Shown here piece after piece: positions 1 through 36,181 of a stretch of DNA of 64,000 nt. The DNA is taken from contig JAHFJM010000003.1 in NCBI GenBank assembly GCA_023245935.1, positions 101,070-165,069 of the forward strand. The letters run 5' to 3'. The translations under genes were made by a program, and so were the position numbers. Position 1 is the stretch's first letter. The number at the start of each line of letters is the position of its first letter. The stretch comes from Candidatus Peribacteria bacterium (GTDB taxonomy: Bacteria > Patescibacteriota > Gracilibacteria > Peribacterales > Peribacteraceae). Under the pieces are notes generated by a model. That model made no database searches and was not told the DNA's origin. It saw nothing but the letters and a program-made list of their open reading frames with translations.

Positions 1-223
1 CGAGAGATTCGAGTGCGGTGCCAAGCGAATCTGCACGATGCATGTTCGATTGTCTCTTCGAAAGCGCATGGGAAATCCGCCCGTGAGTGCTTGTTACAAT
101 CGTCAATTCTCCGAATGCCGACTCCGGAAATTCGGTCATCACGGCATCGATCGCATCGAGGTCTTGAAGAGCATTGCGCTGCATGAAAGTGGGGGAAAGG
201 ACATGCTCATTCCACACTTGCAC
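1..223 (-). CDS. hypothetical protein, 3' end beyond the left window edge
   Basis: Manual minus-strand reading stays open from an in-frame GTG (~223) to the edge: VQVWNEHVLSPTFMQRNALQDLDAIDAVMTEFPESAFGELTIVTSTHGRISHALSKRQ... Not in the ORF track because it has no stop inside the window. Start codon uncertain. Confidence 0.35.
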   Translation of the reverse strand, partial: MQVWNEHVLSPTFMQRNALQDLDAIDAVMTEFPESAFGELTIVTSTHGRISHALSKRQSNMHRADSLGTALESL

Positions 224-21200: not shown

Positions 21201-24200
21201 AACGGTTCGTTCTCGGGCGCTCTCGTCGTGAAGTCGAGTATTACGTCGAGAGGATCGCTCTCCGGTGTGACGATTGCAGGGTTCAATCTTGGCTCCTGCA
21301 ACGGCTCAAGCCAGAAACTTCTCTACAACAACTCGACACAGAAATTCGAGTGCGGCTCCGATCAGTCGGGAGGTTCTGCAAACAGCGGCACGGTGCTCTC
21401 GATCGGCAATGCTCGCTATGTGCTGAAGCAAGGCGACACGATGACCGGCACACTCAAGAGTCGCGGCTTCCTCCTCGCCTCGGGTACGACCCTCTCCGAG
21501 ATGTCGGGTTGGAACGAATACCTGAATTTGCCTCACTCGGGCATTGGAACAAATTCAGTCACTCGTCTCACGAACAACGGTGATCTCGTGAACATCGGTA
21601 CGATTCAATCCGGCGAAGCGCACTTCAGGAGGGGAGGAACGTTTGCGGGGAAGGTGGATTACACGTCTGGGACACCTTATTCCGTTGCCATCGGTGACCT
21701 CAACGGTGACGGAAAACAGGATCTTGCAACCGTCAACGTTGACGGCAACTCCGTCTCGATCTTCATCAATACCGGCACGGGTTCATTTGCTACAAAAGTC
21801 GATTACACAACTGGAAGTGTTCCAGAAAGCGTTGCAATCGGCGATCTGAATGGTGATGGGAAACCAGACCTTGCAGTAGCCAACTACACCAGCGCCTCAG
21901 TCTCTGTCTTCCTGAACAACGGCAACGGCACATTTGCTTCAAAAGTTGACTACACAGCCGGATCGAATCCGCACTCCGTCGCAATCGGCGATCTGAATGG
22001 AGATGGAAAACAGGATCTTGCAGTAGCGAATTACTTCGGTAATTCTGTCTCCGTCATTCTGAACAACGGCAACGGAACCTTCGCTGCAAAAGTCGACTAT
22101 ACAACCGGATCGAATCCGTACTCCGTTGCCATCGGTGACCTCAATGGTGACGGAAAAAAGGATCTCGCCCTCGCAAACGGTGGCAGTGATTCCGTCTCCG
22201 TCTTCCTGAACAACGGCAACGGCACCTTTGTCGCGAAGGTCGATTACACGACGGGGATTGTTCCTTATTCTGTTGCAATCGGTGATCTGAACGGCGATGG
22301 GAAAGCAGACCTTGCAGTAGCCAATTACACTAGTTCTTCCGTCTCCATCTTCCAGAACAACGGCAATGGCACCTTCGCTACAAAGGTAGATTACACAACG
22401 GGAAATAATCCTTATTCCGTTGCAATCGGTGATCTAACCGGTGACGGAAAACCTGATCTTGCCGTTGCAAACGGCAATGCGAACACCGTCTCCACATTCC
22501 AGAATAATGGCAACGGTACCTTTGCCGCGAAGATCGATTACGGGGCGGGCACCAATCCTTCCTCCGTTGCCATCGGTGATCTGAACAATGACGGTAAGGC
22601 GGATATGGCAACGGCAAACTACGGCACCACCGTTTCCATCTTCCTCAATCTCTCCCGCACCATTCTGTATGCCTCCTCCGGCACCGGTGGAGCCGTTGGT
22701 ATCGGTACACCCACACCGGGTTCCGCACTCGCCGTCTCCGGTGCCGTGCTCATCAACGCAAACGGCAATATTCTGAATACCAAAGCAGACGTCGGGCTTG
22801 CACTCGAGGTGATCGGCACGATGTCCGGTCGTGTGCTCCATGCGCAGGATTTGATCACATCATCCGGTTCGCTCATCGTCGAAGGAACGATCTCGGGAGC
22901 GACACTCAGAGGAGCAGGTCTTGCAAGCTGCAACGGTGCAAGCCAGAAACTTCTGTACAACAACTCCACGAACAAATTCGAATGTGGAACCGATCTCACC
23001 GGAGCATCCGGTACGCCGTTCAGTTCCGGCAACGTTCTCACCATCATCGACGCGCGGTACGTGAAGAAGCAAGGAGACACGATGACCGGAGCACTCACGA
23101 TCAATCTCTCCAGCGGTTTCCTCGGACTCAAACTCCTCAACACCGCTTCCGGAAACATTCTCCACGCCGAGAAAGATTTGAGCAGCTCGGGAACACTTAC
23201 TGTGAATGGCATCGCGAGGTTCAAGAATAACCTCAACGTCGTCGGCACGGTTTCCGGAGCCGCTCTCACAATCATGAATGGCACATCGTACATGCTCGGT
23301 TCCGTCGGCATCGGGAACACTTCTCCGAAAGCGAAGCTGGATGTCTCGGGCACGATCTCAGGCACAACGCTGACGATTTCCAGAAACGGTTCCTTCTCCG
23401 GTTCACTCATCGTCAAAAACAACCTCTCCGGCAGCAGTTTCTACGGCGCCGGGCTCGGTGACTGTAATAATTCCACCAACTCCAAACTGATCTACAACAA
23501 TGCAACCGGAAAGTTCGGCTGTGCGACGGATCAAACTGCGGTGGGTATTTCATACACTGCCGCCTCAAACATCTTCGTCAATCAGTCCGGCGATACGATG
23601 ACCGGCGCACTCACGATCAACCTCAGTTCCGGTTACCTTGGGCTTAAAGTTCTCCAGACCGCTTCCGGAAATATTCTCCATGCCGAGAAAGATCTTACGT
23701 CTTCGGGCACCCTCACGGTGGTCGGAGTCGCAAGATTTAAGAATAATGTGAACGTCGTTGGCACGGTCTCGGGTGCAGCACTGACCGTCATGAACGGAAC
23801 GAGCTACTTCCTCGGTTCTTTGGGTATAGGCAACACATCGCCGAAAGCGAAGTTGGATGTGCGCGGAACAATCTCTGGTACAACACTCACGATCTCGGGC
23901 AACGGTTCATTCTCCGGTTCTCTCATCGTCAAGAACAACTTGTCCGGTAGTAGCTTCTACGGTGCCGGGCTTGGTGACTGTAACAATTCGACATCCAACA
24001 AGCTCATCTACAACAATGCAACCGGCAAGTTCGGCTGTGCGACAGATCAGACAGCGGCAGGACTATCCTTCACGAATGCCGATGGGATCTACGTTAATCA
24101 GGCAGGAGACACAATGACCGGAGCGCTCACGATTAACTTGAGTAGCGGCTATCTTGGATTGAAGATTTTGCAGACCGCTTCCGGAAACATTCTCCATGCA

Positions 24201-27200
24201 GAGAAAAATCTCACATCGTCCGGAACAATCGTCTCCGTTGGAGACATTGTTTCCAAAAACGGAACCGCAAAAACCAAAGGCTACGTTCTTTTCTCCGGTG
24301 CAACACTCGCTGAAATGTCCGGATGGAACGAGTACCTCAACATCATTCATTCCGGACTCGGCACAAACTCCGTCACTCGTCTCACGAATCAGGGTGATCT
24401 CGTCAATATCGGTACGATACAATCGGGCGAAGCACACATGCGAAGGGGCGGGACGTTTGCACCGAAAGTAGATTATACGACAGGTTCAGGTCCTTACTCC
24501 CTTGCCACTGGAGACCTGAATGGTGATGGAAAGGCAGATTTGGCAGTTGCCGTATCCAGCGGAAACTCAGTCGCGGTTCTCCTCAATACTGGTACTGGCT
24601 CCTTTGCAACGAAGGTCGATTACACAACCGGAAGCGGTCCTATATCCGTTGCCATCGGTGACCTCAATGGTGACGGAAAGCCGGATCTCGCAGTTGCGAA
24701 TCAAAGCGATTCCTCCGTTTCCATCTTCCTCAATAACGGTAACGGAACGTTTGCTACGAAGGTGGATTACACAACAGGAACAAGCCCACATTCCGTTGCC
24801 ATCGGAGATCTGAACGGCGATGGCAAGGCAGATTTGGCAGTTACCAAAAACGGCAGTGCCTCCGTCGCAATCTTCCTCAATAACGGTAACGGAACGTTTG
24901 CTACAAACGTGGATTACACGACAGGAACAAGTCCATTTTTCGTTGCTATTGGTGATCTGAACGGCGATGGCAAGGCAGATTTGGCAGTTGCCAACAACGG
25001 CAGCACCTCCGTTTCCGTTTTGATCAATAGCGGCAATGGTACCTTCGCTGCAAAGGTCGACTATACAACCGGTACTCAGCCTCAATCCGTTGCCATTGGC
25101 GATCTGAATGGAGACGGAAAGTCCGATCTTACGGTAGCGAACGAAGGTAGCAATTCCGTCTCCGTCTTCATCAATAGCGGCAATGGTACCTTCGCTGCAA
25201 AGGTCGACTACGCGACTGCAACCCTTCCAGACTCCGTTGCCATTGGTGACCTGAACGGAGATGGCAAGGCAGATTTGGCAGTTGCCAACAACGGCAGCAC
25301 CTCTATCTCCATTTTCCTCAATAATGGTAACGGAACCTTTGCCACGAAGGTGGATTACACGACAGGAACAAGTCCATATTCCGTTGCCATTGGTGACCTG
25401 AACGGCGATGGCAAGGCAGATTTGGCAGTAACCAACATCAACAGTTCCTCCGTCTCTATCCTCCTCAACGTCAGTAAAACCATCCTCTATGCCTCCTCCG
25501 GCACAGGCGGAGCCGTTGGTATCGGCACGCCGACTCCCGGATCCGCACTCGCCGTGTCCGGTGCGGTGATCATCAACGCGAACGGCAATATCGTGAATAC
25601 GAAAGCCGATGTAGGGCTTGCGCTTGAAGTGATCGGTACAGCATCCGGTCGCGTGTTGCATGCGCAGGATGTGCTCCGCTCCAGCGGCTCACTGATCGTC
25701 GAAGGGAACATGTCCGGAGCGACACTGCAGGGTGCGGGGCTTGCGAGCTGCAACGGTGCAACGCAGAAACTTCTCTACAACAATTCGACGAAGAAATTCG
25801 AGTGTGGCAGCGATTTCCTCGGTTCCTTCGGTTCCGGAAATGTGGTGACGATTGGCGATTCCCGCTACGTCCGCACCTCCGGCTCGACGATGACCGGAGC
25901 ACTCACGATCAACCTTACCTCCGGCTACCTCGGGCTCAAAATCATGCAGACAGCCTCCGGAAATATTCTCCATGCGGAGAAGAGTCTCACATCGTCGGGA
26001 ACCATCATCGCAGCGCTCGATATCATCGCGAAGGGAACGATGAAGAGTGACGGCTACGTCTTCAGCTCCGGCACAACACTTGCGGAGATGAGTGGCTGGA
26101 ACGAATACACAAACCTCATTCACAGCGGTCTTGGCACAAATTCTGTTGTACGTCTCACAAACCAAGGCGATCTCGTGAATATCGGGACGATTCAATCCGG
26201 AGAAGCACACATGCGCAGAGGCGGAACGTTTGCTGCGAAGGTCGACTACATAACAGGAACAAGCCCTTATTCTGTTGCCATCGGAGACCTGAATGGCGAT
26301 GGGAAGGCTGATCTTGCAGTAGTCAATCTTAACAACTCCGTCTCCGTCTTCATCAACACCGGCACAGGTTCTTTTGCTACGAAGGTCGATTACACGACGG
26401 GAACGAGCCCTCAGTCTGTTGCTATCGGTGACCTCAATGGCGATGGAAAACCAGATCTGGCAGTCGCAAACGAAAATAGTGACTCCGTTTCAGTCTTTAT
26501 GAATAACGGCAATGGTACCTTTGCGACGAAAGTCGACTACATAACGGGAAGCCTTCCTTATTCCGTTGCGATTGGAGACCTGAACGGCGATGGTAAGGCG
26601 GATCTTGCGGTGGCGAATTACATCAGTAACTTCGGCAGTTCCTCCGTCTCCGTCTTCATCAATACCGGCAATGGTATCTTCGCAGCAAAGGTCGATTACA
26701 CAACGGGAACCGCTTCTACTTACGTTGCCATTGGAGATCTCAATGGCGATGGGAAGGCTGATCTTGCAGTGACGAATACTCTAAGCGACACCGTCTCCGT
26801 CTTCCTGAATAATGGCAACGGCACCTTTGCGACGAAGGTCGATTACACGACTGGAAGTCAGCCTTTCTCCGTCGCCATCGGAGACCTGAATGGCGATGGG
26901 AAGGCTGATCTTGCAGTAGTCAATCTTAACAACTCCGTCTCCGTCTTCATCAACACCGGCACAGGTTCTTTTGCTACGAAGGTCGATTACACAACGGGAG
27001 CCGGTTCTTATTTCCTTGCCATCCGAGACCTCAACGGTGATGGGAAGCTGGATCTCGTTTCAGCAAACTATTATGACGACTCCGTTTCCGTCTTGCTCAA
27101 TAATGGTAACGGCACCTTCGCGACAAAAGTCGATTACACAACGGGGGATGGTCCGAGTGGAGTTGCCATTGGAGATCTCAATGGCGATGGGAAGGCGGAT

Positions 27201-29615
27201 CTTGCAGTGACGAATACTCTAAGCAACACCGTCTCCGTCTTCCTCAACCTCTCGCGCACTATCCTCTACGTTTCCGCGGGCACCGGTGGTGCCGTCGGTA
27301 TCGGCACACCGACTCCGGGCTCAGCACTCGCTGTGTCCGGTGCCGTGCTCATCAACGCAAACGGAAATATCGTGAATACCAAAGCCGATGCGGGCCTTGC
27401 GCTTGAGGTGATTGGCACCGCATCCGGAAGAACACTCCATGCGCAGGATCTTCTCAGGTCTTCAGGCGCTCTCACAATCGAAGGTGCTTCGTATTTCGGT
27501 TCCGGCCTCACGATTCAGACAAGCCATAGCAATGCCGGTGCAAGCGAATTCACCATCATCACCAATTACTCGAGTACCAGTAACAAAGTCTTCCGTGTCT
27601 CTGCGTCCGGTGCCGTGTACAGCGACAGTCGCTATAACAGCAACGGCGCAGACTATGCGGAGTGGTTTAAAGATAGTGGTCAGTGGCTAGTGGCTAGTGG
27701 TCAGTCCGCTGCTCCACTCGAACCCGGTGAAGTCGTGTGTATCGATACCACGCAGAATAATGCAGTGAAACGTTGTGAAAATTCAGCTGATCCCAATGTC
27801 ATGGGTATCGTTTCCACAAACCCTGCTTTCGTCGGAAACGTGATTTCCGGTGCCGAAGGCATCATCCCTCCCGGCTACGCTCTCATCGGTCTCATCGGTC
27901 AGGTTCCGGCGAAGCCAACCCTCGAGAACGGTCCGATCCGTCCGGGGGATTCCGTCACGTCTGCCACTGAACCCGGCTTCATCAGAAAAGCGAAAGCAGG
28001 GGAGTCTACCGTTGGTGTGGCACTGGAAGGTTTCGATGGTTCGACTTCGCTCACCACAGGTGGATCGCAAAAGTCCATCAATATTCTTATCTCACGCAAG
28101 AACCAATCTCTTACCGTCGAGACTCTTGAACAGAAAGTCCTCGATCAAATCAATGCCATGAATCTCACCGCTGAGGTTAGCACTCTCGTCAATCAGGCAT
28201 CCGTCAATCTGAATATTGATGATCGAGTGACGCAGGCACTGCATGAGAAAATGGCAGCCTTCGATCTCGCATCCGAGATCAACGCCATTCTCGATGCTCG
28301 TCTCTCCGCTCTCGGCACATCGTCCGGCGCTCTCATTGGAAATAATTCTCTCACCGGCTCGGCTCTTGCAGCCCTTGCCAAAGCGGTCTCGAAGGAATTG
28401 ACCAAGAACACTGTTACGGCAACAGGTTCGACGGATCAGAATTATGAATTACAACTTTCCGAGCTTCGGGATCAATTGCTCGTTCTCAGCACTCAAAGTT
28501 CAGAGCTCAGAGCTTCTCTCGGTTCCGGACACACGCTCCATGCCGCGGCTCTCAGCCTCTCTTCCGGTGCAACGATCTCCGGATCACTTCATCTCAACGG
28601 TTCTCTCATTGTTCCCGATCAATTCTCCATTCTTCACTCCTCTGCAACCACGATGTCCGGTACCGGATTCCCGATCCTCTCCGTTTCCGGTTCCGCCATC
28701 GAGATCGGTTCTCTGATGGCATCAGGATCGCTCAAGGTCATTGGAAACATCACGATCACCGGACTTGCCACGTTCCTCGGTGACGTGCACATCAAAGGTG
28801 AGCTCGTCCTCAGCAATCGTCAGGCGGGCTTCGCCGTCATTCCCGTTTCCGGCACCGCCGTCACCGTTACCTTCTCCGGTGCCATGATGACGATGCCGAT
28901 CGTGAACGTTTCACCCGATACGCCGATTCTCTTTGCCGTCACCAAAGTGACTTCAACCGGCTTCACGATTCGCATCGGCGAGCCGACGCAGAGCCCGATC
29001 ACGTTTGCCTACGTCGCGCTCTCGGCGGATCAGCCGGGGACAACGCTCGGTCATGCTTCCGCAAACGGAGCTCCTGTTCTCATTCCTTTCACGGTGAATG
29101 CACTCGGTCAGCCGGTGTCCTCCGATGCCGTGTGGAACGGCTGCATCCAGGGCAGACCGCTCACCGACAGTGACGGCATTCCGTTCAGCTGCAGTCGATA
29201 CCACGATGGCATGACATGGGATCATCCGGATCTCCATATCAGCTTCATCTATAACCCGAATCACGATCCTGCGATTCTGACGATTCCGGAAGGATATCAG
29301 GTTGTCGTCGTCGACGGTCAGGGCGTTTCGACTCCGGTGGAGTCAGCACCCGAGCCGGTCACGTCTCCGGAACCCGTACCGGTCAGCGACTCGGGCTCCA
29401 CGGTTATCTCCGATCCTCCTGTCGCACCGCTTATTGTGCCTGAGATTGTCCCCGCCTCGACCGGGAGTGTTCCTGCGACTGCTCCTGTGGAAACGCAGAC
29501 AGAGCCGACTGTGAATACTCAAACCGAAGCAGGTTCCGGTTCGATTCAGCAGTTCATTCTGCAACTGCTGCAAAACTCAAACACGGCAACAGGAAGCAGC
29601 GTGAGTGAGGAGTAG
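15249..29615 (+). CDS. giant secreted/surface repeat protein (4788 aa), colinear paralog of 429-14543 with an extra C-terminal segment
   Basis: Single ORF; same order of 13 GDTMTGALTI modules and four 7-blade FG-GAP blocks; signal peptide MNTLKQLLARVLLGTLFLGMFPTELSAAV. Confidence 0.93.
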   Translation: MNTLKQLLARVLLGTLFLGMFPTELSAAVPVGKKISSVVSSSKTAATHPTIFSPTARDFSPSKITKVNNAVGASQIDSARLRRLAAAKAVASSVLETFLAFSGGEKYALGPAKNNQVLTFIDGKIVWRDVDALHSAAGGSPDVVHEPGRGRMPSSDSGGDSRHMGGTPVQTATTTTTSDGISLATADSRYVNVSGDTMDGALSITSNGLGLIISGTASGNALHAEHLLTVSGSSIFDGSARFNSSVTLNNVTYTFPASDGAGSGKVLKTNAAGQLSWADDNAVGTGLSQASGDSRYVNVSGDTMTGALTINLSSGFIGLKVLNTASGNILHAEKDLTSSGTLTVSSTARFKSNLNTVGTISGAALQIMAGSTNYILGSLGIGTTNPKAKLDVTGTISGTTLTISRNGSFSGSLIVQNNIVARSTISGSTINGFNLGSCNGSSQKLLYNNSTQKFECGSDLNSGGTGTFGTGNVITIGDSRYVNTSGDAMTGALTINLSSGYLGLKVLQTASGNILHAEKSLTSSGTLTVSGITRLKSNLNVVGTISGAALQIMAGSTNYILGSLGIGTTNPKAKLDVLGTISGSTLVISRNGSFSGSLVVQNNITARGTISGSTINGFNLGSCNGSSQKLLYNNSTQKFECGSDLNSGGTGTFGTGNVITVGDGRYVNTSGDTMTGALTINLSSGFIGLKIIQTASGNILHAEKNLTSSGGLVFEGAASGSSLYIATSLQGAGLTNCTGSNKLLWDSATGRFSCGIDQTSGSGLDQNSGDARYVNVSGDTMTGALTINLSSGFIGLKVLQTASGNILHAEKDLTSSGTLTVSGIARFKNNVNVVGTVSGGALTIMNGVSSILGSLGIGTSSPKAKLEVIGSFSGSRLYAASAFSGAGLTSCSGAGQKLLWNSTTQQFSCGVDLSSFGSGNVLTVGDSRYVNVSGDTMTGALTINLSSGYLGLKILNTASGNILHAEKNLTSSGTIVARNNIVTEQGTLITRYGLTFLSGSSLAEISGFNNYINFREGIGTDSTMRLTNQGNLRNIGSIQAGETLLTAGGTLAAKVDYAAGTNAYSVAVGDINGDGKADMAVANYGSDSVSVFINTGTGSFATKVDYTTGTSPYSVAIGDLNGDGKPDLAVSNNGSSSVSIFLNKGNGTFAAKVDYTTGSGPRFLAIGDLNGDGKQDVAAASFGGNSVSVLLNNGNGTFAAKVDYTVGSANPYSVAIGDLNGDGKPDLAVAVLNSTTIAIFLNNGDGTFAAKVNYTVGSDPTSIAIGDLNADGKPDLAVSNSSSSFISILINNGNGTFATKVDYTTGNNPYSVAIGDLSGDGKPDIAATNINGFVSIFINNGNGTFAAKVDYTTGSSPLSVAIGDLNSDGKADLAVSNYGSDSVSVFLNRSRTILFASASTGGVVGIGTPTPGAKLSVSGAVIISARGDLANARTDSGIALEVAGTISGSALKLMNNLSVSGTILSVGTITTRGTLSGNNLIVSHSASISGALLVLTSITSKGSLSGATFFGAGLGSCTNSNQKLLYDPATGKFNCSTDYAGSTFGSGNTITIGDARYVNASGDTMTGALTINLSSGFIGLKVLQTASGNILHAEKDLTSSGTLTVSGIARFKNNVNVVGTVSGGALTVMNGTSYFLGSLGIGNTSPKAKLDVLGTISGSTLVISKNGSFSGSLVVVSNITTRGTLSGTNLTVSKSASISGSLLVKTSITSKGSLSGVTIAGFNLGSCNGASQKLLYNNSTQKFECGSDVGANSIGSGNVLAIGDARYVKKQGDTMTGALIINLSSGFLGLRILQMASGSILHAEKSLTSSGLLMVTQSTVRGSGALVVEQRSNSTGAYIRGSGAHINAPLLVLDSSTGSYRAPHILFGYKGTFDVALWRTTGAVLNLSGHLLPSLTNKFDLGSSANRWRSLYLSGGTMYLGTAANQASINFNTSASRFGIDANADGTNELSILSIGNVGIGTGSPKAKLDVAGTISGTTLTISKNGSFSGALVVKSSITSRGSLSGVTIAGFNLGSCNGSSQKLLYNNSTQKFECGSDQSGGSANSGTVLSIGNARYVLKQGDTMTGTLKSRGFLLASGTTLSEMSGWNEYLNLPHSGIGTNSVTRLTNNGDLVNIGTIQSGEAHFRRGGTFAGKVDYTSGTPYSVAIGDLNGDGKQDLATVNVDGNSVSIFINTGTGSFATKVDYTTGSVPESVAIGDLNGDGKPDLAVANYTSASVSVFLNNGNGTFASKVDYTAGSNPHSVAIGDLNGDGKQDLAVANYFGNSVSVILNNGNGTFAAKVDYTTGSNPYSVAIGDLNGDGKKDLALANGGSDSVSVFLNNGNGTFVAKVDYTTGIVPYSVAIGDLNGDGKADLAVANYTSSSVSIFQNNGNGTFATKVDYTTGNNPYSVAIGDLTGDGKPDLAVANGNANTVSTFQNNGNGTFAAKIDYGAGTNPSSVAIGDLNNDGKADMATANYGTTVSIFLNLSRTILYASSGTGGAVGIGTPTPGSALAVSGAVLINANGNILNTKADVGLALEVIGTMSGRVLHAQDLITSSGSLIVEGTISGATLRGAGLASCNGASQKLLYNNSTNKFECGTDLTGASGTPFSSGNVLTIIDARYVKKQGDTMTGALTINLSSGFLGLKLLNTASGNILHAEKDLSSSGTLTVNGIARFKNNLNVVGTVSGAALTIMNGTSYMLGSVGIGNTSPKAKLDVSGTISGTTLTISRNGSFSGSLIVKNNLSGSSFYGAGLGDCNNSTNSKLIYNNATGKFGCATDQTAVGISYTAASNIFVNQSGDTMTGALTINLSSGYLGLKVLQTASGNILHAEKDLTSSGTLTVVGVARFKNNVNVVGTVSGAALTVMNGTSYFLGSLGIGNTSPKAKLDVRGTISGTTLTISGNGSFSGSLIVKNNLSGSSFYGAGLGDCNNSTSNKLIYNNATGKFGCATDQTAAGLSFTNADGIYVNQAGDTMTGALTINLSSGYLGLKILQTASGNILHAEKNLTSSGTIVSVGDIVSKNGTAKTKGYVLFSGATLAEMSGWNEYLNIIHSGLGTNSVTRLTNQGDLVNIGTIQSGEAHMRRGGTFAPKVDYTTGSGPYSLATGDLNGDGKADLAVAVSSGNSVAVLLNTGTGSFATKVDYTTGSGPISVAIGDLNGDGKPDLAVANQSDSSVSIFLNNGNGTFATKVDYTTGTSPHSVAIGDLNGDGKADLAVTKNGSASVAIFLNNGNGTFATNVDYTTGTSPFFVAIGDLNGDGKADLAVANNGSTSVSVLINSGNGTFAAKVDYTTGTQPQSVAIGDLNGDGKSDLTVANEGSNSVSVFINSGNGTFAAKVDYATATLPDSVAIGDLNGDGKADLAVANNGSTSISIFLNNGNGTFATKVDYTTGTSPYSVAIGDLNGDGKADLAVTNINSSSVSILLNVSKTILYASSGTGGAVGIGTPTPGSALAVSGAVIINANGNIVNTKADVGLALEVIGTASGRVLHAQDVLRSSGSLIVEGNMSGATLQGAGLASCNGATQKLLYNNSTKKFECGSDFLGSFGSGNVVTIGDSRYVRTSGSTMTGALTINLTSGYLGLKIMQTASGNILHAEKSLTSSGTIIAALDIIAKGTMKSDGYVFSSGTTLAEMSGWNEYTNLIHSGLGTNSVVRLTNQGDLVNIGTIQSGEAHMRRGGTFAAKVDYITGTSPYSVAIGDLNGDGKADLAVVNLNNSVSVFINTGTGSFATKVDYTTGTSPQSVAIGDLNGDGKPDLAVANENSDSVSVFMNNGNGTFATKVDYITGSLPYSVAIGDLNGDGKADLAVANYISNFGSSSVSVFINTGNGIFAAKVDYTTGTASTYVAIGDLNGDGKADLAVTNTLSDTVSVFLNNGNGTFATKVDYTTGSQPFSVAIGDLNGDGKADLAVVNLNNSVSVFINTGTGSFATKVDYTTGAGSYFLAIRDLNGDGKLDLVSANYYDDSVSVLLNNGNGTFATKVDYTTGDGPSGVAIGDLNGDGKADLAVTNTLSNTVSVFLNLSRTILYVSAGTGGAVGIGTPTPGSALAVSGAVLINANGNIVNTKADAGLALEVIGTASGRTLHAQDLLRSSGALTIEGASYFGSGLTIQTSHSNAGASEFTIITNYSSTSNKVFRVSASGAVYSDSRYNSNGADYAEWFKDSGQWLVASGQSAAPLEPGEVVCIDTTQNNAVKRCENSADPNVMGIVSTNPAFVGNVISGAEGIIPPGYALIGLIGQVPAKPTLENGPIRPGDSVTSATEPGFIRKAKAGESTVGVALEGFDGSTSLTTGGSQKSINILISRKNQSLTVETLEQKVLDQINAMNLTAEVSTLVNQASVNLNIDDRVTQALHEKMAAFDLASEINAILDARLSALGTSSGALIGNNSLTGSALAALAKAVSKELTKNTVTATGSTDQNYELQLSELRDQLLVLSTQSSELRASLGSGHTLHAAALSLSSGATISGSLHLNGSLIVPDQFSILHSSATTMSGTGFPILSVSGSAIEIGSLMASGSLKVIGNITITGLATFLGDVHIKGELVLSNRQAGFAVIPVSGTAVTVTFSGAMMTMPIVNVSPDTPILFAVTKVTSTGFTIRIGEPTQSPITFAYVALSADQPGTTLGHASANGAPVLIPFTVNALGQPVSSDAVWNGCIQGRPLTDSDGIPFSCSRYHDGMTWDHPDLHISFIYNPNHDPAILTIPEGYQVVVVDGQGVSTPVESAPEPVTSPEPVPVSDSGSTVISDPPVAPLIVPEIVPASTGSVPATAPVETQTEPTVNTQTEAGSGSIQQFILQLLQNSNTATGSSVSEE
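18385..19425 (+). repeat. FG-GAP/VCBS block 1 of giant protein 2 (7 blades)
   Basis: Seven GD[LI][NS]xDGK motifs counted. Confidence 0.8.
21630..22665 (+). repeat. FG-GAP/VCBS block 2 of giant protein 2 (7 blades)
   Basis: Seven GDL[NT][GN]DGK motifs counted. Confidence 0.8.
24445..25480 (+). repeat. FG-GAP/VCBS block 3 of giant protein 2 (7 blades)
   Basis: Seven GDLNGDGK motifs counted. Confidence 0.8.
26215..27260 (+). repeat. FG-GAP/VCBS block 4 of giant protein 2 (7 blades)
   Basis: Seven DLNGDGK motifs counted. Confidence 0.8.
27675..27702 (+). repeat. heptanucleotide array (AGTGG[TC/CT])x4 in coding sequence
   Basis: AGTGGTC AGTGGCT AGTGGCT AGTGGTC; encodes DSGQWLVASGQS at the site where the paralog carries a REP-like element. 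Confidence 0.8.
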
Positions 29616-29986: not shown

Positions 29987-30497
29987 TGGCGCGCATTGTA
30001 AGCGCCGTTTGCGTTTGCGCAAATTTTTTCTCATGCTCCAGCAGCCACCGCTTCTTTTCCAGTCCTCCGCTGTACCCTCCAATTCCGCTACCAGATGCGA
30101 TAATCCTGTGACAGGGGATCAGGATCACGATCGGGTTTCTTCCACAGGCGCTTCCTGTAGCACGCATTGCTTTCGGTTTCCCAATTCGCTTCGAAAGCTC
30201 TGAATAACTGATGGTTTTTCCGTACGGTACGCGCAGCATTTCTCTCCAGATAATCCTTTGAAAATCCGTGCCTTGCGGTGAGATTGCGACGGAGAATTTT
30301 TGTCTTCTACCACCAAAATATTCTTTCAGCTCTTTTCTGCATTGCAGAAGAACCTTGTCAGTTTTTTCCTTCGAACTTTTTTGCTTCCCGAAAGCAACAC
30401 TGGTGATCGCTTGTCCGTCACTCGTGATCGTGAGAACGCCGAGGGGGGAGGGGAGAGTGAGGGAAGGCATCATCGACAGCTTAGTCCGTTCTTCCAT
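29979..30497 (-). CDS. ogt: methylated-DNA--[protein]-cysteine S-methyltransferase
   Basis: Active-site motif IPCHRII and GxGGYSGGLxxKxWLLEHE. Confidence 0.92.
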   Translation of the reverse strand: MEERTKLSMMPSLTLPSPLGVLTITSDGQAITSVAFGKQKSSKEKTDKVLLQCRKELKEYFGGRRQKFSVAISPQGTDFQRIIWREMLRVPYGKTISYSELSKRIGKPKAMRATGSACGRNPIVILIPCHRIIASGSGIGGYSGGLEKKRWLLEHEKKFAQTQTALTMRANA

Positions 30498-32133
30498 CAG
30501 CTGCCATTTGCTTTCTCATGCAGTACCACTCAAAACCTTCTTTGAGCGCCGTCCAACTTGCCTGAAGCATGTCGCTGCTCACGCTTGTGGTGGACCATTG
30601 GTCGGCATCATTTGCGAATTCGATGGACACCTGCACAAGCGAAGCGGATCCTTCGGCGCTGATTGGAAGTTTATCGACATGGAAGTCGACAAGTGAAACA
30701 TGGGAAGTTTCAGGAAGCCTACCCGCGAGAGCTTTGCGAAGCGTTTGAAACAAGGCATCGATAGTTCCATTGCCTTCGGCAACCGTGTGTTCAATGGTGC
30801 CATGCACGTTCATTTTCATGCTCGCCTCCGATCGCAGCCCGAGAGTGTCGATCACTTTGGGGGCGCTTACTTCGGTGAATGTCGGTGCCAGATTTTCTTT
30901 CACTTGGGCAAGAAGCAGGAGATCCAAAGATCCCATTCCTGCTCCGAAGTTGATTCCATTGCCTGATGCGGATTTGATGGCATCGGCAGCTCGTACTTGC
31001 AGTGCAGGTTCATGGAGGAACCGATCACGGAGCTCAGGACTTAGGAGTCTCGAAGATTTTGCGATTTCAACAACCAAACTGCGACCACCCTGTTTCGATG
31101 CGACGATGCTCCTCTCGTTTCCGAGGGTCGTCGGATCGAAGAACTCGTATGCATTTCCACGAGGATTCTCTCCGTTTGTTCGTGCAACAGCGGAGATATG
31201 CATGCCACCGCTGTGGCTTGCGACACGATCGCCGAGGAAGGCTTGCCTTGGATCCAACGGTTGTCTCTGAATGCGGGAAATCTGACGACTCGTCGGGGTG
31301 AGTGTTGCGAGTGATTCTTTCGAGAGTGTTTCGTATCCGGAATGGTGAAGATTGGCGATTGCGACACCGAGATCAAGATTCCCGACACGCTCGCCGTGCC
31401 CGTTCCATGTGCCCTGTACATGACGAGCTCCCTCCTGCACTGCCGCGAGCATATTTGCCATCGCGAGATTGCGATCGTCGTGAGGGTGGATGCCGATGAG
31501 AGCGCCGCTGAAGGAGCGGCGGACATCCGAGACCGCTCGTCCCACCAAGTCGGGGGTCCTTCCTCCATTGGTATCGCAGAGGACAATGCGCTTCGCACCC
31601 GATTCCAGCGCCGTTTGCAGCGTGCGAAGGGCGTACTCGGGATCCTCACACCATGCGTCGAAAAAATGTTCGGCGTCGTAGGTGACATCGTTTGATTTCG
31701 AGGACAGCAATTGAATGGAATCTCTGATCATCGCGATATTCTCATTCACGGTTGTGCGGAGCACTTTCTCCACCTGGTAGCGTGAACTTTTTCCAACCAC
31801 CGTGAGTGCAGGCGCCCCGCTTCCGATCAATGCCCGGAGACCGGGATCTCTTTCGGCTGCAACCCCTGCACGGCGGGTCATGCCGAATGCGGCGTGCTTG
31901 GTTCCCTGCAGCGGATGTGCTTTCAGTTCTTGAAAGACGGCTCTGTCCACGTCATTGGACTCCGGGAAACCTGTTTCGACGAAGGGAATACCGAGTGAGG
32001 CGTCTATCCGTGCAATGGCAAGTTTGTCTGCTGTCGAGAGGTTGATGCCCGATGCCTGGTCGCCGTCACGGGGTGTGACATCGTAGAGTTCGATTGCATG
32101 AGAGAGATTCATGACGACGTGCGGAAGAGACAT
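30481..32133 (-). CDS. cimA: citramalate synthase / alpha-isopropylmalate synthase family (start may be 32112)
   Basis: YDVTPRDGDQASGINLSTADKLAIA, ADPEYAL-like CEDPEYALRTLQTALESGA, CDTNGG, IHPHDD, VQGTWNGHGERVGN, HSGGMHISAV: TIGR00977-type pattern rather than canonical LeuA. Confidence 0.85.
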   Translation of the reverse strand: MSLPHVVMNLSHAIELYDVTPRDGDQASGINLSTADKLAIARIDASLGIPFVETGFPESNDVDRAVFQELKAHPLQGTKHAAFGMTRRAGVAAERDPGLRALIGSGAPALTVVGKSSRYQVEKVLRTTVNENIAMIRDSIQLLSSKSNDVTYDAEHFFDAWCEDPEYALRTLQTALESGAKRIVLCDTNGGRTPDLVGRAVSDVRRSFSGALIGIHPHDDRNLAMANMLAAVQEGARHVQGTWNGHGERVGNLDLGVAIANLHHSGYETLSKESLATLTPTSRQISRIQRQPLDPRQAFLGDRVASHSGGMHISAVARTNGENPRGNAYEFFDPTTLGNERSIVASKQGGRSLVVEIAKSSRLLSPELRDRFLHEPALQVRAADAIKSASGNGINFGAGMGSLDLLLLAQVKENLAPTFTEVSAPKVIDTLGLRSEASMKMNVHGTIEHTVAEGNGTIDALFQTLRKALAGRLPETSHVSLVDFHVDKLPISAEGSASLVQVSIEFANDADQWSTTSVSSDMLQASWTALKEGFEWYCMRKQMAADGRTD

Positions 32134-32155
32134 AAAAAAAGCGCCATTCCGGCGC
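32134..32155 (-). terminator. intrinsic terminator/attenuator immediately 5' of cimA
   Basis: Minus strand: GCGCC-GGAAT-GGCGC followed by TTTTTTT, abutting the cimA ATG. Confidence 0.75.
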
Positions 32156-32179
32156 GAGAGGTTTGTGCTGATAAGCAGA

Positions 32180-32242
32180 TCACCCCCGGACGCCGGAGCG
32201 CCGAATAATAATTCTACCGATGATCGAGTGAAGACTCTGCAT
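32180..32242 (-). promoter_or_regulatory. candidate isoleucine leader peptide MQSLHSIIGRIIIRRSGVRG* of a cimA attenuator
   Basis: Minus strand ATG CAG AGT CTT CAC TCG ATC ATC GGT AGA ATT ATT ATT CGG CGC TCC GGC GTC CGG GGG TGA; 5 Ile in 20 aa, followed by the terminator. Confidence 0.7.
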
Positions 32243-32369
32243 CACGCGTAAAGTATATTTCCCCACTCGGAAGTCAAGTTTTTACACTTTTGACCGTAGA
32301 ATGCTCCAAGGAGAAGCCAAAAAGTGTCACTGTACTGCTTCGAAGCAGTATCTTTGCTACTGTAGAGCT

Positions 32370-33104
32370 ATGTCCCTCCTTTCCGTCCATCATCTCTCCC
32401 TCACGATCGGCGATCAGCCGATTCTTCGTGGGATCGATCTGGACATCGCGGAAGGCGAGGTGATCGGTGTGATTGGACCCAACGGCTCAGGCAAGACCAC
32501 ACTTTTCAACGTGCTCTCGGGCTTCTTGAAACCGACGCACGGAAAGATTCACTTCAAGAAAACGGATATGACAGCAATGCCAGCGTCCGAGCGTGCCCGG
32601 ATCGGCATCGGAAGAGTCTTTCAGAACTTCGGTATCTTCCGCGAGATGACACTCTCTGAGAACGTGCTTGTGGCACTCGAAGCGCTGCCGAAAGAGCAGC
32701 GACTCGTGCTCGGCGATTTGAAAAAAGCAGTGCATTCGACACTGAAGCTTGTGAATCTGGAAGATCATGCGAAGAGGAAGGCATCGTCACTCTCCGGTGG
32801 TCAGATGCGCCTCCTCGAAATCGCACGCACGCTCGTCTCCGGCAAAGAACTGTTTCTCCTCGATGAACCGACTGCAGGTGTGTCGCCAAAGATGACGGGG
32901 CAGATTGCGGATCTGATCCTCACACTCAAGAAACAGGGGAAGACTGTGCTGATCGTGGAGCACGATCTGCCGTTCATCCAGAAGATCTGCGATCGCGTGA
33001 TCGTTCTCGATGTCGGACAGGTGGTGTTGTCGGGAACGCCGGAGGAGGTGAGGGGAAACAGGAAGCTTAAAGAGCTGTATTTTGGGGCTGATCCGACGGA
33101 ATGA
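32370..33104 (+). CDS. livG: branched-chain amino acid ABC transporter ATP-binding protein (LivG-type)
   Basis: Walker A GPNGSGKTT, signature LSGGQMRLLEIARTL, Walker B LFLLDEP, LivG-like TDMTAMPASERARIGIGRVFQN. Confidence 0.9.
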   Translation: MSLLSVHHLSLTIGDQPILRGIDLDIAEGEVIGVIGPNGSGKTTLFNVLSGFLKPTHGKIHFKKTDMTAMPASERARIGIGRVFQNFGIFREMTLSENVLVALEALPKEQRLVLGDLKKAVHSTLKLVNLEDHAKRKASSLSGGQMRLLEIARTLVSGKELFLLDEPTAGVSPKMTGQIADLILTLKKQGKTVLIVEHDLPFIQKICDRVIVLDVGQVVLSGTPEEVRGNRKLKELYFGADPTE

Positions 33105-33106
33105 CC

Positions 33107-33140
33107 CCCATCCTCGATCCTCCCCCCGAGGGGGGAAGGA
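33107..33140 (+). repeat. short palindrome, possibly a REP-like variant or bidirectional terminator
   Basis: ATCCTCGATCCTCCCCCCGAGGGGGGAAGG after livG. Confidence 0.4.
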
Positions 33141-33223
33141 AGCCCTGCTTTGAGCAACTTTTTTGAGTTGTATTTTGTTATACAATCAGACTATTCTCCG
33201 ACTGATTCTTACCCCCATTTCTT

Positions 33224-34342
33224 ATGAAAAAAACTCTCGCTCTTGCTTCACTCCTGACACTTGCCCTCACGGCATGTGGCGGTCCGAAGACTGTTCGAAT
33301 CGGTTACATCGGTCCACTGACCGGTGACGCCGTATCGTACGGTGTCGATACACTCAATGGAGTACGCAATGCCGTGGATGAGGTGAATGCTGCAGGAGGT
33401 ATCGATGGTCGGCAGGTCGAACTTATTGCCGAAGACAGCAAATGCAACGGTGCCGATAGTGCAAGTGCGGTTCAGAAGCTCGTGAATGTAGATAAGGTTG
33501 TTGGCATTATCGGTGGTCAATGCAGTTCGGAAACGCTTGCGGCAGCTCCGATTGCCGAGGCTGGAAAAGTCGTGATGATTTCGCCGATTAGTTCCAATCC
33601 GGATATCACGACGGTCGGTGACTACATCTTCCGTGTGTACCCAAGCGATGCCCTCAAAGGAAAGGCGCTCGCAGCGTTCTTCACGAAGTCCGGATTCACG
33701 AAGGTGGCAATGATCAGCGAGAATACTGATTTTTGTCAGGGCGTTCGGTCGTCTGTGAAGAAAGATCTTCCGGCAGGTGTTGAGCTGGTTTTCGATGAGA
33801 ATGTTGATCCCGGAACGAAGGATTATCGAACGCTGATGACAAGACTGAAGAATATTAATTTCGATGTGATCATCCCGAATGGTCAGTCCGATGCGACGGT
33901 TGCGGAGATGGTAAAGCAGATGCGTGCTCTCGGTATGACACAACAGATTGTCGGTACGGATGTTGCCGATTCCGTCACACTCGGTGTCGTTGCCAAGGAA
34001 GCGGTTGAGGGTCTGAAAGTTCTCTCCGTGCCGTCTCTCGGCGAAGAGAATCCTGCAGCTGCAGCTTTTGCAACGAAATTCAGGCAGCAGTATGGTGAGC
34101 CGAAACAGACGATGTTCTTTGCAGCGCTTGCGTACGATGCAACGAATGTGATGCTCAAAAAGATCGGAGAGGCAGGCACCGGTGAAAAACTGAAGCAAGC
34201 TCTCTACGATCTAAAGGAGTATCAGGGTATTGCAGGAACATTCCATTTCGATAGCAACGGTGATGTCGTTGGCATTCCGTTTGCGATGAAGCAATTCAAG
34301 GACGGAAAACTCATGCAGTCGGAGATCGTTCCAATTCAGTAA
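33224..34342 (+). CDS. livK: branched-chain amino acid ABC transporter substrate-binding lipoprotein
   Basis: Lipobox LALTAC; VRIGYIGPLTGDAVSYG...GGIDGRQVELIAEDSKCN Peripla_BP_6-type sequence. Confidence 0.9.
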   Translation: MKKTLALASLLTLALTACGGPKTVRIGYIGPLTGDAVSYGVDTLNGVRNAVDEVNAAGGIDGRQVELIAEDSKCNGADSASAVQKLVNVDKVVGIIGGQCSSETLAAAPIAEAGKVVMISPISSNPDITTVGDYIFRVYPSDALKGKALAAFFTKSGFTKVAMISENTDFCQGVRSSVKKDLPAGVELVFDENVDPGTKDYRTLMTRLKNINFDVIIPNGQSDATVAEMVKQMRALGMTQQIVGTDVADSVTLGVVAKEAVEGLKVLSVPSLGEENPAAAAFATKFRQQYGEPKQTMFFAALAYDATNVMLKKIGEAGTGEKLKQALYDLKEYQGIAGTFHFDSNGDVVGIPFAMKQFKDGKLMQSEIVPIQ

Positions 34343-34360
34343 AAAATCGGATAGTAACCG

Positions 34361-34398
34361 GCGAATAGCGAATAGCAGCTTTGCTACTCGCTATTCGC
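34361..34398. repeat. heptanucleotide-based inverted repeat (GCGAATA.../...CGCTATTCGC) after livK
   Basis: GCGAATAGCGAATAGCagctttGCTACTCGCTATTCGC; can form a hairpin. Confidence 0.65.
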
Positions 34399-34446
34399 TT
34401 TACGATGTATTCCAGTTTGCAGTAAACGATAGGTACAATCCTCTCT

Positions 34447-35322
34447 GTGCAGCTCCTCCTCAACGCCCTCATCGCAGGATCCTTTGCGGCTCTGCTCGCT
34501 TCAGGATTGTCGCTTGTGTATGGAGTGCTCGGGATCTTCAATATGGCACTCGGGCAAATTGCGCTTGTTGGAGGATTAACGACATGGTGGCTTGCGTCGG
34601 TACTGTCACTTCCGCTTCCCTTCGCGATTGTCGGGGGAATCGTCGTCACAGCACTCGTCACATGGTTCGGCTTCGAATTCTTCGTCGCTCCATACTATCG
34701 ACGTCATCGTTTCCTCCCGCTGGTGACAACGATTGCACTCAGTATGGTGCTCGATGGATTGATTCTTGCTCTCTTTCATGAAGAACCGAAGACGATTGCC
34801 GCAGGCTCGAGAACACTCCTGCATGTCGGTGATGCCTTGATGTCCTACCAACAGCTCACGCTCATTCTCCTTACGATTCTCTTCCTTGCTGTTCTCACGT
34901 GGGTGCTCGTCGCGACATCGTTCGGTCGCCGTATCCGGGCGACGGTGCAACATCCACTCGCTGCGGAAAGTCTTGGGATTCGTTCGGGACTTCTTCACCG
35001 TATTCTCTTCATCATGAGTGGAGTACTTGCCGGATTTGCCGGTATTTATATTGGTATTGATCAGAACCTCACGCCGACGATTGGTTTTGCAATCACAATC
35101 AAAGCGTATGCCGCACTCATTGCCGGTGGCAAGGACAGTCTCAAAGGCACGATTGTCTGCGCGTACCTCATTGCCCTCCTCGAACAGCTTGCCGTCGGTA
35201 TTCCGTGGTTCGGATTCTATATACCGTCCGGGTACCAGAGCAGTGTTGCATTGCTTGTCATCATCTTCATTCTTCTCCTGAAGCCTCAGGGTATCTTTGG
35301 TTCCCGTACCCGCATCGCATAG
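34447..35322 (+). CDS. livH: branched-chain amino acid ABC transporter permease (LivH-type)
   Basis: GTG start; LLLNALIAGSFAALLASGLSLVYGVLGIFNMALGQIALVGG pattern; multiple TM segments. Confidence 0.9.
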   Translation: MQLLLNALIAGSFAALLASGLSLVYGVLGIFNMALGQIALVGGLTTWWLASVLSLPLPFAIVGGIVVTALVTWFGFEFFVAPYYRRHRFLPLVTTIALSMVLDGLILALFHEEPKTIAAGSRTLLHVGDALMSYQQLTLILLTILFLAVLTWVLVATSFGRRIRATVQHPLAAESLGIRSGLLHRILFIMSGVLAGFAGIYIGIDQNLTPTIGFAITIKAYAALIAGGKDSLKGTIVCAYLIALLEQLAVGIPWFGFYIPSGYQSSVALLVIIFILLLKPQGIFGSRTRIA

Positions 35323-35326
35323 CTCT

Positions 35327-36181
35327 ATGAATTACTTGTTCCACATTCTCACGATGATCGGCATCGTACTGCCCAATATTCTTGGCTATAACCTTATCTT
35401 CGGACGAGGAAAGATTCTGCATTTCGGTCCCATCGCGGTAAGCCTGATGTCGGCGTACGCAATTTTCCTGACACAGCGGGCAACCGGCAGCTATCTTCTT
35501 GCGATTCCGGCAGGGCTTGCAGCATCTCTTTTCATTTCAGCATTCTTCGCATGGCTTGCACTCCGGCTCGACAGCGATGCGCTCGGCATTCTGACGATTG
35601 CGATGCATTTGGCTCTCCTCGCAGTTGTTCTAAACTGGATATCACTGACTCGCGGTGCTCTTGGCATCCCGCAGATTCCGAGGATGCAGGGGCTTTCAAC
35701 GCAGCCTGCGTTTACTTTCATAGCAATCACTATCGGTGTTCTCTGGGCTTTCCTGATGCATCATATTCATCGTTCTGGTCTCGGCAGACAACTGTCTGCA
35801 CTTGCCGAGAACCGAGCTCATGCAGAAGCCCTCGGCATCAGCAGAATGCGTGTCATTCTCTCTGCATTTCTGATTTCCGGCATCGGTGCTTTCTTCTCCG
35901 CCTTTCTCTATCCGCAGTATATTTCACTCCTGCATCCGAATGATTACCAATTCAAAGATCTCATTTTCTACGTGATGTGCGTCGTTGCGGGAGGACCGGG
36001 CTCGGTACGAGGCGTTGCCCTTGCGACCGCTTTGCTCACGTGCCTGCAGGAGGGGATTCGTTTTCTCCCGTTGCCGTACTCGCTAATCGGTCCCGTGCGG
36101 CTTATTGTTTTCGGATGTATTTTGATTGTTGCCGTGTACATCAGGAGGAGGGAAATTTTTCCTATGCAACGCACTGTGTAG
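35327..36181 (+). CDS. livM: branched-chain amino acid ABC transporter permease (LivM-type)
   Basis: GYNLIFGRGKILHFGPIAVSLM..., LSALAENRAHAEALGISRMRVILSAFLISG. Confidence 0.88.
   Translation: MNYLFHILTMIGIVLPNILGYNLIFGRGKILHFGPIAVSLMSAYAIFLTQRATGSYLLAIPAGLAASLFISAFFAWLALRLDSDALGILTIAMHLALLAVVLNWISLTRGALGIPQIPRMQGLSTQPAFTFIAITIGVLWAFLMHHIHRSGLGRQLSALAENRAHAEALGISRMRVILSAFLISGIGAFFSAFLYPQYISLLHPNDYQFKDLIFYVMCVVAGGPGSVRGVALATALLTCLQEGIRFLPLPYSLIGPVRLIVFGCILIVAVYIRRREIFPMQRTV

Follow-up and report, generated by a model that had tools for sequence, protein, structure and literature searches.

The cimA locus

The window, by which we mean the whole 64-kb stretch of DNA that was analysed, holds a gene for a citramalate synthase-type enzyme, cimA, that is divergent from the genes of a branched-chain amino-acid-type ABC transporter, and between the two lies a short ORF in which isoleucine codons are repeated in a run, followed by an intrinsic terminator (Table 1).

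Table 1. Features of the cimA leader region and its neighbours, in window positions
Feature	Positions	Strand	Basis and remarks
cimA, citramalate synthase-type enzyme, 543 aa from the revised, probable start	30481..32112	minus	HMGL-like (PF00682) and LeuA_dimer (PF08502) domains
Intrinsic terminator GCGCC-GGAAT-GGCGC-TTTTTTT	32134..32155	minus	Sequence; terminator also in relatives
Antiterminator 3' arm (ACCTCT C GCGCCGGA ... GCGCT)	32140..32162	minus	Predicted MFE structure; overlaps whole terminator
GGTGATC across the leader stop, pause hairpin 3' arm	32178..32184	minus	Predicted MFE structure of nascent leader
Leader ORF MQSLHSIIGRIIIRRSGVRG, 20 codons + TGA	32180..32242	minus	Stop TGA at 32182-32180; homologous leaders in relatives
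Antiterminator 5' arm (GGCGCTCCGGCGT..GGGGGT)	32182..32202	minus	Predicted MFE structure; contains TCCGGCG, 32197-32191
Main control codons ATT ATT ATT	32204..32212	minus	
Tandem Ile codons ATC ATC	32219..32224	minus	32225-32219 doubles as pause hairpin 5' arm
Putative -10 box TACTTT	32250..32255	minus	16 nt past -35 box, 7 nt ahead of leader ATG
Putative -35 box TTGACT	32272..32277	minus	TTGAC and 16-nt spacer in nearly all family leaders
Branched-chain amino-acid-type ABC transporter (livG, substrate-binding protein, two permeases)	32370..36181	plus	Divergent neighbour, outside the attenuator

The cimA gene is intact, and its product keeps both the conserved motifs and the LeuA_dimer allosteric domain. 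Its score against TIGR00977 (412.9 bits) falls just under the cut-off of 450, this being by far the best-scoring family, and a citramalate synthase activity is likely but unproven, the substrate being inferred. A previous sequence-only reading of this DNA had let the T-run of the terminator abut the ATG of cimA at 32133, but homologues align from the second ATG at 32112 and have their T-run some 15-40 nt ahead of the start, so that the start should probably be moved by 21 nt. Elsewhere in the window, a 4788-aa ORF (15249-29615, plus strand) with many FG-GAP/VCBS-like repeats (VDYTTGxxPxSVAIGDLNGDGKxDLAVAN) encodes a giant surface-type protein.

The leader ORF, its Ile codons, the terminator and the pairings described in that reading proved exact to the base on the minus strand: CGCCGGA (32154-32148) is complementary to TCCGGCG in the antiterminator 5' arm, and GATCATC over the tandem Ile codons pairs with GGTGATC at the leader stop with a single G-U. 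The locus thus has the translatable short ORF with a run of Ile codons, and the intrinsic terminator between this ORF and cimA, that are expected of a leader-peptide attenuator. The combination is furthermore unique within the window. A count of short ORFs (10-40 codons) gave 2409 starts, and the threshold of five or more Ile within eight codons was reached by the cimA leader ORF alone, at three nested starts; when the same threshold was applied to 14 residues, no other short ORF that reached it had a terminator behind it.

The TTGACT/TACTTT pair was not listed by a generic promoter scan, because TACTTT is a poor match to a -10 box, and its assignment as the promoter of the leader is supported only by its agreement with the geometry in relatives. 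The sequence-only reading had pointed to a TATACT/TACTTT box; TACTTT fits the 16-nt spacing of the relatives, whereas TATACT (32257-32252) would leave only 14 nt. Transcription usually starts 6-8 nt after a -10 box, and the earlier suggestion of a nearly leaderless transcript therefore holds up as an inference from promoter geometry, the start site itself being inferred. Leaderless transcripts may well be common in this genome: the pattern TTGAC-17-TAnnnT-5..12-ATG has 26 matches genome-wide as opposed to two for the reversed pattern, and most of these begin ORFs of ordinary length.

Conservation of the leader in relatives

The decisive evidence that the cimA leader may be an attenuator is its conservation. 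Among 74 genomes from the GTDB family, 12 have a homologue of the cimA type, and all 12 homologues are preceded by a leader with an Ile run (for example MTNRSTIISIIIIQAPRR, MASHQIISSIIITPLRKA, MTHRSIIISIIIASRPRR, MKRSIIIRSIIITRAPRR and MQRRAIIANIIIITPTTA), with a clear terminator in at least 11, whereas a lack of either the Ile codons or the terminator in relatives would have refuted the attenuator. The near-universal layout in the family is TTGAC-16 nt-TAnnnT-about 7-12 nt-ATG/GTG, followed by the Ile run, GGCG..GAGG and the terminator, and with a regular expression that allowed 15-18 nt the spacer between TTGAC and TAnnnT was 16 nt in all leaders but one. Ahead of the Ile run, insertions and deletions come in threes while the start codon and the Ile run are conserved. 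The frame in which the GGCG..GAGG segment is read varies, on the other hand, from leader to leader, with the stop codon inside the segment each time, and the segment is thus conserved as RNA and as a position for the stop rather than as peptide. One cimA homologue (L004, G070:C32) has a single TAA within its frame, and its pause helix has decayed; it may be a pseudogene or an assembly error.

A covariance model (R1) built from 15 leaders matches 37 of the 74 family genomes, which as sampled make up the whole order, with E-values down to 1e-20. When the model was run on wider samples of 291 genomes from the class and 384 from the phylum, the matches beyond the order were weak (E 1e-4 to 5e-3 per genome) but mostly consisted of Ile-run leaders with terminators, and individual matches outside the order can be said to draw support from their content rather than from their score. 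Outside the family one such leader, MNTTRNASAIIIPRP, precedes the isoleucyl-tRNA synthetase gene ileS (962 bits to TIGR00392) and another, MTARQIIISIITPSLRGSR, an enzyme with HMGL-like and LeuA_dimer domains; the Ile-run leaders MQKIYSSSIIISIIIPSPLGKGRVLV and MDTNFSHSIIISIIIPRLRLRKSFAVR come from another family of the phylum, and a single match beyond the order has a threonine run instead (MNRLSFVTTTTTTTTSLRNRG). Leaders of the same type hence appear, on sequence grounds, to be present in other families of the phylum and probably also in another class.

Covariation and predicted folding

In the relatives the predicted pause helix joins the Ile-Ser codons to CUGCUGAU after the stop, and it covaries on a structure-free alignment. 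Its covariation score is 0.292, where shuffled controls reach 0.182+/-0.026 and slid ones no more than 0.114, and 29 cells are changed on both sides as against 13 in shuffles. The GAUCAUC:GGUGAUC pairing proposed from the window alone is indeed the predicted fold of the leader before the terminator has been transcribed, but the helix conserved in relatives sits in a neighbouring register. The proposed 7-bp TCCGGCG:CGCCGGA antiterminator is likewise exact, but the predicted antiterminator is longer, and a homologous 5' arm (GGCGUGAGGAGGUAG) is present in relatives. In this Ile antiterminator 77-80% of the cells can pair, as compared to 30-64% in slid controls. The pairing is mostly due to an invariant GGCG:CGCC, and the antiterminator shows some covariation on the alignment made with the covariance model but none on a structure-free MAFFT alignment. 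The codons and the pause helix accordingly agree with the expectation that related genomes would have conserved Ile codons and covarying stems, and the antiterminator does so only weakly. In leucine leaders, by comparison, each antiterminator arm pairs better with its own partner than with swapped ones (none of 5000 permutations as good); when the test was run on Ile leaders over segments set by the position of the stop codon, 495 of 5000 permutations were as good, a weak outcome that reflects the varying frame of the stop with respect to GGCG.

The MFE z-score from RNAfold is -2.6 over the whole leader and -3.8 over the segment that follows the Ile codons, and this latter segment is predicted to fold as a long antiterminator that swallows the terminator (-33.9 kcal/mol; none of 200 shuffles as stable). 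The terminator has a predicted probability of 0 when a ribosome is placed on ATC ATC or on either of the first two ATT codons, and of about 1 once the ribosome has reached the third ATT or any later codon up to the stop; when the leaders of relatives are scanned in the same manner, most likewise switch inside or just past the Ile run. An antiterminator that excludes the terminator in dependence on the position of the ribosome is hence in place, as a prediction only and with weak covariation. Without a ribosome the terminator is predicted with a probability of about 1 in 12 of 15 leaders (relatives and window) by way of the pause hairpin, the window being among the three exceptions, with the antiterminator as its full-length MFE structure. 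Taken alone, single-sequence evidence for the switch is weak, since 51 of 300 spacer shuffles of the window also abolish the terminator and in most leaders the switch arises in 6-20% of shuffles, and for L009, L011, L030 and partly L003, L005 and L022 the simple model gives termination even with a stalled ribosome.

Genes behind the leaders

Forty leaders were examined, about 35 of the Ile type and five rich in valine. The Ile leaders precede cimA (12), the threonine ammonia-lyase gene ilvA (10), other HMGL-type synthase genes (3), liv genes (1) and ORFs of unknown function (9). Established biochemistry has two alternative routes into 2-oxobutyrate, one through CimA and one through IlvA. The liv case is found in a genome of the same genus as the window that has no cimA (G057), where the Ile leader VNFKSAIISFIIVTAFKRS (L144) is followed by a 124-aa ORF and liv genes, the livG product being 89% identical to that of the window. 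The targets cimA, ilvA, liv and ileS satisfy the expectation that an attenuator should control the metabolism of the amino acid it senses, even if the remainder of the isoleucine pathway is absent from the window's genome. The small ORFs between leader and enzyme had no Pfam match in the seven that were scanned and almost no mutual similarity among those compared. No Ile leader was seen ahead of ileS in the window's own genome (G000), where ileS (contig C4; L201:550-4500) has, near position 508, an in-frame insertion of some 400 residues that contains two histidine-phosphatase (His_Phos_1) domains.

Leucine leaders, of which MHSRNLFLGLALLLLTAEGRLRA is an example, are found ahead of leuA-type genes; those of L014-L019, L021, L023-L025, L027 and L028 share an AEGRLRA-like ending and a matched antiterminator, and the leader ORFs of L015, L019, L024, L027 and L028 contain an inserted palindromic repeat (GCCCTGAGC....TCGAAGGGC) that keeps the frame. 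The valine-rich leaders (VVVSLVLVAV, TVVVVVV; L143, L146, L148, L150 and L151) have the same build and precede a small ORF and a UvrD-like helicase; the rationale of a valine sensor ahead of such a helicase is unexplained. The window's genome furthermore has a phenylalanine leader, MRTRVLALKRSNLALAAWLSFAAFGAFGFAYFTFF, with a terminator-like hairpin (G000:C4:157650, L163), ahead of an operon for DAHP synthase, aroB, aroA, aroDE, chorismate synthase and prephenate dehydratase (L192:4954-12450, minus strand), and this may be a second leader-peptide attenuator of the genome, here on a complete pathway (aro-pheA). A Ser/Cys-rich leader, MTSSFSSSASCSCCCPWSEGICA, in the same genome (G000:C6:336829, L177; L193:3745-4086) is followed by a protein of 114-115 aa without family match and an MFS transporter. 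In another genome (G218, L184:303-1000) an aspartokinase-like gene is preceded by a tandem pair of Ile/Thr leaders that both have a terminator; the gene is interrupted by in-frame UGA codons, consistent with UGA encoding glycine as in the Gracilibacteria-type code. What emerges is a sequence-level vocabulary of leader-peptide attenuators (Ile, Leu, Phe and probably Val, Thr and Ser/Cys) on near-leaderless transcripts, and since each leader names the amino acid that is monitored, the leaders give functional clues to adjoining genes of unknown function.

An orphan target

Attenuation of a lone cimA in a seemingly reduced genome was considered odd from the outset, and it is no less so now. The genome of the window, which lies on its contig 5, is 1.22 Mb and 99% complete, and searches of it in which 14 of 14 positive controls were recovered found no KARI (IlvC), IlvD, aconitase/LeuC, LeuB or TPP-enzyme N domain (acetolactate synthase), for which reason its cimA is an orphan; two aminotransferase-IV proteins are present. 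In 70 genomes of the family, IlvC and IlvD are found in one, LeuB in two and LeuC/aconitase in three, and the Ile-attenuated cimA occurs without the rest of the pathway in 11 of 12 genomes, with only G014 having an aconitase/LeuC match. This raises the question of why a first step should be regulated when the later steps are missing.

Enzymes such as CimA, IlvA and LeuA catalyse committed first steps that are normally under feedback control. It can be imagined, as a speculation that we regard as unlikely, that the orphan cimA, ilvA and leuA are outsourced entry enzymes, such that a partner or host finishes the amino acid and the small cell takes it back. Low levels of charged Ile- or Leu-tRNA would then cause citramalate, 2-oxobutyrate or isopropylmalate to be made, which the partner would complete outside its own feedback control, and the liv-type transporter divergent from cimA would be part of the context. 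If true, the attenuator would be the starvation sensor of a metabolic outsourcing across cells.

Alternatively, cimA and its attenuator could be leftovers of a lost isoleucine pathway that are no longer important, a notion which stems from the missing enzymes and to which the G070 homologue, with a stop within its frame and a pause helix that has decayed, lends some colour. This seems very unlikely, however, in view of the intact motifs and allosteric domain of CimA, and since the combination of orphan and leader is kept in 11 of the 12 genomes with cimA, where promoter, leader and terminator are all intact although the enzymes have diverged to 40-50% identity, it must be under selection.

Proposed mechanism and alternatives

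We consider it probable, at roughly nine in ten, that the cimA leader is a ribosome-mediated transcription attenuator, there being no RNA or protein data. The classical Ile attenuation put forward in the sequence-only reading is supported by the leaders of the relatives and by a predicted switch that tracks the ribosome on the Ile codons. Computation has established the parts, their conservation, the gene associations and the predicted position-dependent switch; the start site, the translation of the leader, ribosome stalling, termination and the response to aminoacyl-tRNA charging are all inferred. RNA polymerase would start at the leader ATG or a few bases before it, and the leader would be translated from this leaderless or nearly leaderless end. 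With ample Ile-tRNA the ribosome would reach the UGA inside the antiterminator 5' arm and cover the arm, the terminator would form and cimA would be off, whereas with scarce Ile-tRNA the ribosome would stall on the Ile codons and leave the arm free to form the antiterminator with the 5' side of the terminator, so that cimA would be transcribed. In the absence of a ribosome the arm would be held in the hairpin that spans the Ile codons, a step that is well supported in relatives and less so in the window. What counts against this attenuator, besides the weak single-sequence and antiterminator evidence given above, is that nine targets of unknown function and the orphan cimA leave its physiological logic open.

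The RNA might also act as a sensor independently of any leader peptide, as a T-box or a ppGpp or amino-acid riboswitch, with the Ile codons being incidental. It is indeed structured and conserved, and base pairing explains part of the conservation of the Ile-Ser codons. Such a sensor is nonetheless made highly improbable by the conserved reading of the leader described above, namely the start codon and Ile run, the indels in threes and the stop kept in different frames, and by the fact that the leader residue changes with the gene (Ile with cimA, ilvA and ileS, Leu with leuA and Phe with aro-pheA). Furthermore, Rfam has no family match at the gathering threshold anywhere in the window, no Rfam model matched five related loci, and no T-box was matched in L135 even at E-values up to 1. 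Least credible is an action of the leader on translation of cimA or on ribosome reinitiation rather than on termination, which the short region and the proximity of the leader stop to the cimA start would allow, but which disagrees with the GC-rich hairpin and T-run after the leader in nearly all relatives and with a competing arm that overlaps the terminator and involves no Shine-Dalgarno site of cimA.

Comparison with known attenuators

To our knowledge next to nothing is known of gene regulation in bacteria of the candidate phyla radiation, because few of them can be grown. The enterobacterial attenuators for isoleucine, valine and leucine (ilvGMEDA, ilvBN and leuABCD) begin with a 5' UTR that carries a ribosome-binding site, and they serve complete pathways. 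The cimA leader resembles these in that it has a short ORF with repeated control codons, a predicted pause hairpin and antiterminator, an intrinsic terminator and a branched-chain gene downstream, but differs in being, by inference, nearly leaderless and in having a single orphan enzyme as its target in a reduced genome.

In the open-access literature, older and subscription work being outside the search, we found no report of attenuation or leader peptides in CPR, Patescibacteria or Gracilibacteria, and the genome paper of Ca. Peribacter riflensis describes few genes for amino-acid biosynthesis and does not mention attenuation (PMC4736985). Attenuators and uORFs have been described in actinobacteria, such as ilvBNC of Corynebacterium and leaders of ilvB, leuA and cys genes, and a 2005 survey of this group noted that several terminators are missing and that ileS has unusual T-boxes, not a leader peptide (PMC1262725, PMC10272879, PMC11857589). 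These are similar to the cimA leader in that uORFs with branched-chain residues are involved, with attenuation or presumed attenuation of ilvB, but they sit on other genes and on complete pathways, and no sequence relation was found. The ilvB-OMG and ilvB RNA motifs have likewise been reinterpreted as uORFs rich in branched-chain residues and Thr (PMC10272879); unlike the cimA leader they precede ilvB, and the Rfam searches reported above matched no model. The principle of attenuation as described by Yanofsky is thus an ordinary one, but the setting is unexpected, with near-leaderless leaders in a reduced genome of a candidate phylum, an orphan enzyme as the target and related leaders elsewhere in the phylum.
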